DNA of 64,000 bases from Candidatus Zixiibacteriota bacterium (GTDB lineage: Bacteria > Zixibacteria > MSB-5A5 > GN15 > JAAZOE01): assembly GCA_036480375.1 (NCBI GenBank), contig JAZGGI010000028.1:62001-126000 (forward strand), given 5' to 3'. The notes under the pieces are model-generated. The model searched no databases, was not told the origin of the DNA, and saw only the letters and a program-made list of their open reading frames with translations. Each line of letters starts with the position of its first letter. Position 1 is the first letter of the stretch. A program made the translations under genes and the position numbers. Positions 18,565 through 20,957 of this stretch are shown here, piece after piece.

Positions 18565-18567
18565 AAA

Positions 18568-18594
18568 AAACCGAATCGCAATGATTCGGTTTTT
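18568..18594 (+). terminator. Rho-independent terminator
   Basis: ACCGAATC-GCAAT-GATTCGGT stem followed by TTTTT, immediately after the stop of the beta-CASP nuclease gene. Confidence 0.9.
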
Positions 18595-18621: not shown

Positions 18622-19578
18622 TCAATACTTATGGGGTAGGGGGATATCAAGATCCTTAAGATACGGTATTAGATCCAACTTGTTCAATTTGTCAAATGCT
18701 TTTTCATCATTTGGAAATTTCTTATTAACATATTCAACCAATTCAGTTAACTCATCTTCGGTAACGAAAATGAAATTGTCATCAATATCCTGAACCGTAT
18801 TACATGGAATAACAATATCTTCATCAGACAGTATTTTGTTTTTCTTTATTTGAAACTCAACTACTTTATCGGCATCATAATATGCATGACTGCCAATTCT
18901 ATCAGGATCGTTGGGCGCGTGCCAACCTTCCCAGCAGACTGCCATTGGAGTCATACGAAAGTGTTCGCTTTGCCGTTTATCCGAATAGAAAACTTCGATG
19001 TCCTGATGTTCGACAAGGTCGTAAATAATTGAACCTTTTCGTTTGTTTCGGTTTTCGGCTTTTTTGATCATCGCAATCGGGCCACAAACGACCTGGGCCA
19101 TAAATTGCAGATGGCCTTCGCCTACCATGTCATTGGCAAAAACAAGTTGGCGAAACAGCTCGATTTTAAAAGCTTCAGGGAAGACCTTATAATTTAATTC
19201 ACCAGCGATAACGACTAATTCGGGACCGAATCTCTTCATAAACTTTATTACGGGCAAATCCTTTTCCTGTTCAATACTGACTGGGTAATCCGCTCCCTCT
19301 ACAATACTGATTGGGTAATCCGTTTCAATTTCCGCCTTCAATCCTTCAGGAATAGGTGGAATGGCAACTACCATGCCATGGTTGAAGTTTTTATCGCGAC
19401 CCACAAAGCCCACTGGGAGTTTCCCTGAAGAAATCATTTCCAGGTCATACTGCCTCCGTACTGAACCATTGATAGAGTTCAGCCATTCAATTAATTTTTC
19501 TGAACTTTCCGTTTTCGATTCCATTATTCGATTTGTATGTCTGTGCCTGATGGCAATTCCGGTAATCATACTATCCAT
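18622..19578 (-). CDS. Unknown protein paired with a RelA/SpoT-like enzyme
   Basis: A 318-residue soluble protein that I do not recognise. It has no signal peptide or membrane span. Visible landmarks are GFVGRDKNFNHGMVVAIPP (about 57-75), a ten-residue tandem duplication from a 30-bp repeat (DYPISIVEGA then DYPVSIEQEK), a Trp/His-rich segment AVCWEGWHAPNDPDRIGSHA, and an acidic helical C-terminus (VTEDELTELVEYVNKKF). It starts 18 bp after the stop of the RelA/SpoT-like gene on the same strand, behind GAGGAG located inside that gene's end, so the two form an operon. Partner roles such as antitoxin or effector are possible but unproven. Confidence 0.75.
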   Translation of the reverse strand: MDSMITGIAIRHRHTNRIMESKTESSEKLIEWLNSINGSVRRQYDLEMISSGKLPVGFVGRDKNFNHGMVVAIPPIPEGLKAEIETDYPISIVEGADYPVSIEQEKDLPVIKFMKRFGPELVVIAGELNYKVFPEAFKIELFRQLVFANDMVGEGHLQFMAQVVCGPIAMIKKAENRNKRKGSIIYDLVEHQDIEVFYSDKRQSEHFRMTPMAVCWEGWHAPNDPDRIGSHAYYDADKVVEFQIKKNKILSDEDIVIPCNTVQDIDDNFIFVTEDELTELVEYVNKKFPNDEKAFDKLNKLDLIPYLKDLDIPLPHKY

Positions 19579-19596
19579 AAAGCAATATTCTCCTCA

Positions 19597-20670
19597 TCAA
19601 TCCTTATAAATTCTATTCCTCAATGTTCCAAAACGCTCATCTGATGATATTAAATCTTTGCTAATCTGTTCCATGTCTTTTCTTATTTCATCTGGTATCA
19701 CTTGCACTCCCGGCCATGAAACTCTTTTATAAACTATATCATGACTGAATTCGCTCCAGGCATTGGTTAACAATGAATGTACTTGTATTTCTGCTTTCAG
19801 AAATATATTCTCTTCCGATTCTTGAACCGGCATTGTGACGACAAAATGAAATCCATAATAACCTTCATTGGGTTTGTCAGTAAAATCCTTATCGCTGTCA
19901 GAAACAATTTCGTAATTATTATCATCCAGCCAACGTTTCAATTGATCCGCGCATTTTATTATGTCTTCCCGGCAAGCCACAATAATCCGTCCCCCAACCA
20001 AATCCTTTATATCATCATATAATGTATTTAGTATCGGTAGGTCTATTAATTTATTTAAAGTATCTTGATCGACCAATCGCGGCCAATTTGATTCTGAATT
20101 GAATTCACAATGTTTCCATGCCTTGTTAAATAGTTTTTTTTCAACACTCTCTTTTTTCTTCGCTCTAGTGTGAATACCTTTAATCGCATCAGCCGAAAGG
20201 GTCTGTAGCAATTGCATCTTTGCCTCTTTAAGAGAACTCTCTAATTCATCCGCGGCATTATTGTAACTCTGTTTATTATCGAGATATTTTTTTCTCATTT
20301 CAGAAACAGGGGTACCTTCTTCAATGCCACTGGATAAAAAACGCTGAAAATAATCGCCTTTTATATCGGCCTTTTCTTTTTTACTCAATTCACGCAACGT
20401 GGGTTGTATATTTTGATTTACCATTCCCTGCTCCCGAGCCTTCTTCGCCGCACAATGATTATACATTAGTTGAGAATTCCCGGTCAAGCATTTATGCGGC
20501 CCAGCCCCCAACATATCCGCCGGATTCTGCCTTTCCCTCGTTACCAATTCGGATTCAAAACCAACAGCGTGCGCCAATGTGTTCAGATTTTGAACGCCAT
20601 TATAGCTATAATCGACTTGGAAGTCAATGTATTTCAAGTCAGTTAATATGTAATATTGTTCAATTTCCAT
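19597..20670 (-). CDS. RelA/SpoT-domain nucleotidyltransferase with novel N-terminal region
   Basis: 357 residues. The C-terminal half (about 150-330) is a RelA/SpoT synthetase domain with the expected catalytic residues: R169-x-K171-x3-S175-x2-K178 (ATP site), D223 in KDLVGGRII, G270-Y271...H275 in GYYGFH and E294 in AEIQVHSL. There is no HD hydrolase or regulatory ACT/TGS domain. Residues 1-150 are not a known domain to me and end in a charged helix. Small synthetases make (p)ppGpp or, as ToxSAS toxins, pyrophosphorylate tRNA or make (p)ppApp. The product here is unknown. No clear ribosome site precedes the ATG. The partner gene is directly downstream. Confidence 0.85.
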   Translation of the reverse strand: MEIEQYYILTDLKYIDFQVDYSYNGVQNLNTLAHAVGFESELVTRERQNPADMLGAGPHKCLTGNSQLMYNHCAAKKAREQGMVNQNIQPTLRELSKKEKADIKGDYFQRFLSSGIEEGTPVSEMRKKYLDNKQSYNNAADELESSLKEAKMQLLQTLSADAIKGIHTRAKKKESVEKKLFNKAWKHCEFNSESNWPRLVDQDTLNKLIDLPILNTLYDDIKDLVGGRIIVACREDIIKCADQLKRWLDDNNYEIVSDSDKDFTDKPNEGYYGFHFVVTMPVQESEENIFLKAEIQVHSLLTNAWSEFSHDIVYKRVSWPGVQVIPDEIRKDMEQISKDLISSDERFGTLRNRIYKD

Positions 20671-20957
20671 ATTTGGTTTTTTAGATACCTATTTAATCTT
20701 TAGCCCGCCTTTAGTATGGCGCAATTTCGGTAACAACACCGGAATAGAAGTATTTTTGAAAATTACATTTTGTAAATTTATCAAAAGCAAGCTACCATAC
20801 AAGTATACCATCTAAACCCCGAAAAGTCAATATTTACGGGCATTCCAGGCGGGGTAACTATTTTACTGCCACGATTAAATAAAACCAGAAAGCAAATCCG
20901 AATAAGTAAATAGTATTCAGGTGTAAATTTCGGTTAGTCAGATCACATCGGCTAAAC

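Follow-up and report, generated by a model that had tools for sequence, protein, structure and literature searches.

A RelA/SpoT-type synthetase and a partner of unmatched family in Candidatus Zixiibacteriota: probably a toxin-antitoxin-like module of a type not yet described

Relatives within the RelA/SpoT family are makers of alarm nucleotides or disablers of tRNA. A free-standing member of this family that is encoded directly ahead of a second protein raises the question of whether the two genes form a unit and, if so, what that unit does. Such a pair lies in the window analysed here, a stretch of 64,000 nucleotides from Candidatus Zixiibacteriota bacterium (GCA_036480375.1, contig JAZGGI010000028.1, positions 62,001 to 126,000). 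On the minus strand of the window, an open reading frame of 357 codons (19597–20670) is followed downstream by one of 318 codons (18622–19578), with a gap of 18 bp (Table 1). This is the two-gene cassette reported in a preliminary description made from the sequence alone, which also placed the pair between unrelated genes; the flanks in the window are indeed unrelated. On the upstream side are lipoprotein-like and acyltransferase-like genes and, farther away, pgsA, cinA and recA. On the other side is a convergent metallo-beta-lactamase gene, with a strong terminator-like hairpin between it and the partner gene, and upstream of the metallo-beta-lactamase gene lie mrp- and nifU-like genes; these gene names were read from translations. 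An Rfam search gave no match. The pair is likely to have its own promoter and terminator, as judged from sequence signals.

Table 1. Features of the synthetase–partner locus (window coordinates).
Feature	Position	Strand	Basis
RelA/SpoT-type synthetase, probable CDS of 275 aa from M83 of the long ORF	19597..20424	-	SD-like GGGAG, G045 alignment, PF04607
In-frame upstream extension, codons 1-82; translation doubtful, possibly host-gene debris	20425..20670	-	no SD, GC3, no homologues
RelA_SpoT catalytic core	19723..20025	-	PF04607 aa 216-316, E 2.6e-9
Partner, 318 aa, family not matched; motif RQxEHFRxxPMAVxWExWHxPNxPxR	18622..19578	-	database searches, G045 alignment
SD-like GAGGAG of the partner, within the 18-bp gap 19579-19596	19590..19595	-	sequence
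Sigma-70-like promoter TTGACC-18-TATAAT, 11/12 matches, just upstream of M83	20458..20487	-	consensus match only
Alternative sigma-70-like promoter TTGACT-17-TATAAT, 11/12 matches	20599..20627	-	consensus match
Alternative sigma-70-like promoter TTGACT-17-TATACT	20802..20830	-	consensus match
Terminator-like hairpin, stem 12 bp, T-rich on both strands	18566..18594	-	sequence

The enzyme belongs to the RelA/SpoT synthetase superfamily, with a PF04607 match of 37.8 bits against a Pfam cut-off of 27. Searches of Pfam and NCBIfam revealed no hydrolase or regulatory domain. The catalytic residues R169, K171, S175, D223, Y271, H275 and E294 are present and are invariant in the homologue from a second genome, G045; the preliminary description was correct on both points. 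In the toxic synthetase FaRel2, the ATP-binding donor residues are R64, K66, S70, K74, D90, G93, R95, E145 and Q147 (PMC11782079). The equivalents in the window synthetase are R169, K171, S175, K179, D223, G226, R228, E294 and Q296, and the single loss from the donor site is that of FaRel2 R77, which is replaced by N182. The tyrosine and histidine of the G-loop are retained. The host genome encodes a separate long RSH-type protein of 730 aa, its best RelA_SpoT match, which means that the cassette enzyme need not fill a housekeeping alarmone role.

The enzyme had been described as a protein of 357 aa with an unrecognised N-terminal region of 150 aa, a claim that holds for the length of the open reading frame but probably not for the protein. 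Among the twelve possible starts within the first 140 codons, codon 83 (ATG at 20424) is the sole one preceded by a Shine-Dalgarno-like sequence at proper spacing (GGGAG, 20435–20431). The TTGACC-18-TATAAT promoter match ends some 34 bases before this codon, in the alignment the G045 homologue begins near it, and GC3 is 0.49 in codons 1–82 versus 0.31 in the rest of the frame (Fisher p 0.004). Taken together, these features indicate that the synthetase is probably about 275 aa long rather than 357 aa, and that codons 1–82 may be untranslated. Those codons have no counterpart in G045 and no homologue in the 134 genomes searched. However, their frame is open and coding-like by host codon usage, which counts against the untranslated reading. 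If the enzyme has 275 aa, the N-terminal region without a family would shrink to about 80 residues, some of them belonging to the ordinary helical segment that leads to R169.

The DNA around this upstream extension has further resemblances. A 47-bp stretch (window 20815–20858) is 83% identical to the interior of an amidohydrolase gene from a related genome (G067, L126). It is probably debris of a host gene beside the cassette, and on that basis the stretch upstream may be where remnants of host genes have accumulated. Codons 10–80 (window 20431–20643) resemble the N-terminal part of cysteine desulfurase, with an E value of 0.06 against PDB and 25% identity over 72 aa (E 0.014) to the copy encoded in the same genome. 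The likeness is weak, was absent from a second tblastn and from NCBIfam, and is unproven; it could reflect chance or a remnant.

Whether the two genes belong together was addressed by their distribution. Among 385 genomes, the partner was found by profile search in two, the source genome and G045, and the synthetase clade in three, namely these two and G050. G045 is a member of the same order from another family, and it carries both genes with order and orientation kept; in both partner-bearing genomes the gene immediately upstream of the partner is a synthetase of this clade. Identity between the window and G045 is 37% for the partner and 34–38% for the synthetase. The flanks in G045 are wholly different: there the pair sits between an acyl-CoA dehydrogenase gene and an oxidoreductase gene. 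A TTGACA-17-TATACT match lies upstream of the G045 pair, and its partner gene probably starts at a CTG codon some 10 nt past the synthetase stop, immediately preceded by an SD-like GGGAG. The third clade member (L015, G050:C65, 84–713) is broken, with a contig end no more than 87 bases away. The small contig that holds it also carries a DNA methyltransferase gene.

The partner was detected in none of six genomes of the same family by profile search; in those with a readable flank the block from recA to the lipoprotein gene is syntenic and the pair is missing. A survey of co-occurrence, as suggested in the preliminary description, found the pair adjacent in the window and in G045, no solitary synthetase of the clade in the neighbourhoods that were readable (not that of the G050 copy, at a contig end), and no partner elsewhere. 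The other phylum synthetases (G013, G065, G066, G105, G106 and G112) fall outside the clade and lack such a partner, and the search in another phylum covered five genomes only. Phage and plasmid matches of the synthetase are distant RelQ-like or other small alarmone synthetase (SAS) enzymes. Pattern scans of GTDB and IMG/VR returned no relatives, a result of little weight because G045 was missed as well.

Complete examples of the pair thus number two, both in one order. Since the adjacent pair recurs in a second genome, its occurrence is more than chance, and the pair is a real unit. Its sporadic presence in different contexts is as expected of an accessory cassette. The recurrence at an unrelated place in another genome suggests that the pair is probably a toxin-antitoxin-like module, and probably one of a type not yet described. 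It could be argued that the pair is instead a decaying genomic passenger with no present function, given that it is very rare, that the copy in G050 is broken where its contig ends, and that the upstream DNA seems to hold gene debris such as the 47-bp amidohydrolase-like stretch. We consider this very unlikely, as both reading frames are intact with codon usage of coding type, and the catalytic residues and the motifs of the partner are conserved with G045.

The relationship of the enzyme to known synthetases bears on what the module would do. Phylogenetic analysis of 23 synthetases grouped the enzymes of the window, G045 and G050 in one clade (support 98/97) that excludes both CapRel, which was the sole confirmed toxSAS reference, and the RelQ-type enzymes. 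The deeper placement of the clade is weakly supported (72/66) and involves several long branches. The clade has a specific insertion before the catalytic aspartate that none of the other 20 enzymes in the comparison has, and it lacks the arginine after the ExQ motif (EIQVHS, ELQIQT and EIQVHT versus EIQIRT) that is present in 19 of those 20. The nearest solved structures are of RelQ/RelP type (6fgk, YwaC, E 5.5e-10; also 2be3), and the best NCBIfam match is RelQ (YjbM, E 8e-17), although the NF053588 score of 61.7 bits is far below the 320-bit cut-off and does not make the enzyme a member of that equivalog. In these single-sequence comparisons RelQ/RelP enzymes are the nearest, but weakly.

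Together with the retained tyrosine and histidine of the G-loop, the RelQ/RelP likeness favors a non-toxic accessory small alarmone synthetase that would produce (p)ppGpp under stress, with the partner regulating it or acting downstream. The catalytic motifs are the same as those of RelQ (YjbM) and RelP (YwaC). Unlike these enzymes, however, the window synthetase has the insertion, lacks the near-universal arginine, is paired with a protein of unmatched family and lies outside the RelQ-type clade. Constant coupling to a single partner and sporadic distribution are also more typical of accessory modules, and a non-toxic role is rather unlikely.

The partner offers few clues. As had been claimed, it is of unmatched family: searches of Pfam, NCBIfam, PADLOC, PHROGs, PDB, plasmids and phages gave no match, the only PHROG match being at noise level (E 0.2). 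Three blocks are conserved with G045, GPExxxxAGELN, CGPxxMIxK and the longer motif in Table 1. By sequence, the partner shows none of the features known from toxSAS antitoxins, having no YXXY motif and no match to pZFD, PanA or Tis1-like domains in Pfam or PDB, and it is unrelated to CapRel. Single-sequence structure predictions were uninformative (mean pLDDT 39.0 and 33.8). A PLD-like fold, prompted by an HF motif, was considered for the partner and found no support in hhalign comparisons with PLDc_2 proteins. The partner gene contains an imperfect 30-nt tandem duplication (19250–19317) encoding a repeated DYP(I/V)SI that is absent in G045.

With the synthase gene first, and a large partner whose conserved polar/aromatic motif could form a binding site, the two proteins might be partners in signalling, with a nucleotide messenger made by the synthetase and the partner as both its receptor and its effector. 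This is quite unlikely, as the partner has no recognisable effector domain, and we know of no RelA-type messenger system of such a kind.

Comparison with toxSAS systems (FaRel2-ATfaRel2, PhRel, PhRel2-PanA, FaRel and split CapRel) brings out several likenesses: a free-standing synthetase with no hydrolase domain, retained donor-site residues, a bicistronic arrangement with a second protein, and accessory distribution. Unlike the known systems, the window clade shows no phylogenetic link to toxSAS enzymes in the tree, with CapRel as sole confirmed reference, and sequence comparison of its partner gave no match to pZFD/YXXY, PanA (DUF4065) or Tis1. The synthetase core and a GYxGxH variant of the G-loop (GYYGFH and GYSGIH) are shared with CapRel of Salmonella phage SJ46. 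However, CapRel is a fused defence protein, whereas the window system consists of two genes, and the two are separate in the tree. The window enzyme matches PADLOC PDC-S33, a model on which CapRel scores 7e-87, over core residues 219–306 only; the full-length match that would include the C-terminal pseudo-zinc-finger antitoxin part was not found. Membership of the ToxSAS or CapRel systems, which the preliminary description had raised, is therefore not supported by these comparisons, whereas its view that the architecture is unlike known systems agrees with the lack of a match to any catalogued system. A defence-island setting, which it had proposed to check, was not found: no defence island surrounds the pair, and the adjoining genes are housekeeping genes in both the window and G045.

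We propose, at about an even chance of being right, that the pair is a toxSAS-like two-gene accessory module in which the synthetase halts growth and the partner keeps the enzyme off and probably senses a trigger. The synthetase would act as a pyrophosphotransferase that moves pyrophosphate from ATP to a nucleotide or to the 3' end of tRNA. By analogy with toxSAS, the co-translated partner would bind the synthetase and hold it inactive, and pyrophosphorylation by the released enzyme would halt growth; toxicity, acceptor and inhibition are all taken from that analogy. The partner probably senses the trigger, which might be, for example, a phage component. The basis for the module is that the donor-site and G-loop residues are intact, pairing and gene order are conserved, and distribution is sporadic. 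Against it, no supported grouping joins the clade to CapRel or RelQ, the partner matches no known antitoxin family or structure and is large for an antitoxin, there is no defence island, and complete examples number only two. More tentatively, the pair may be an undescribed toxSAS-type module, with a divergent synthetase with altered acceptor-site features, a new partner family distinct from pZFD, PanA and Tis1, and possibly a new acceptor substrate.

Other synthetase arrangements were noticed during the searches. A different pair consists of a RelA/SpoT synthetase gene that shares 4 bp with the gene of an NA37 nucleoid-associated-like protein (PF04245), at L119 (G236:C92, 3305–5307) and at L096 on an Ochrobactrum quorumnocens plasmid (1194–3277); the two NA37-like partners are 23% identical (E 1e-24). 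The G236 pair adjoins Shedu (SduA_C) and an AbiEii-like AAA ATPase. Judged by these gene contexts, the NA37-like pair may be a separate defence-linked synthetase system. An unusual fusion is encoded on Rhizobium rhizogenes plasmid pC6.5d (L046, 3581–7513): a protein of 1310 aa, annotated as a member of the poly-gamma-glutamate hydrolase family, is RelA/SpoT-like close to its N-terminus, with 38% identity in a match covering 26% of the query.

Known toxSAS enzymes are reportedly neutralised via the donor site by pZFD-type domains or via the acceptor site by Tis1-like domains, according to the target that is modified (PMC11782079). The generality of this rule could be tested on a synthetase clade whose partner family is unrelated, and the clade and its partner could reveal a new mode of control for pyrophosphotransferases. 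It would also extend such modules to a sparsely sampled phylum.
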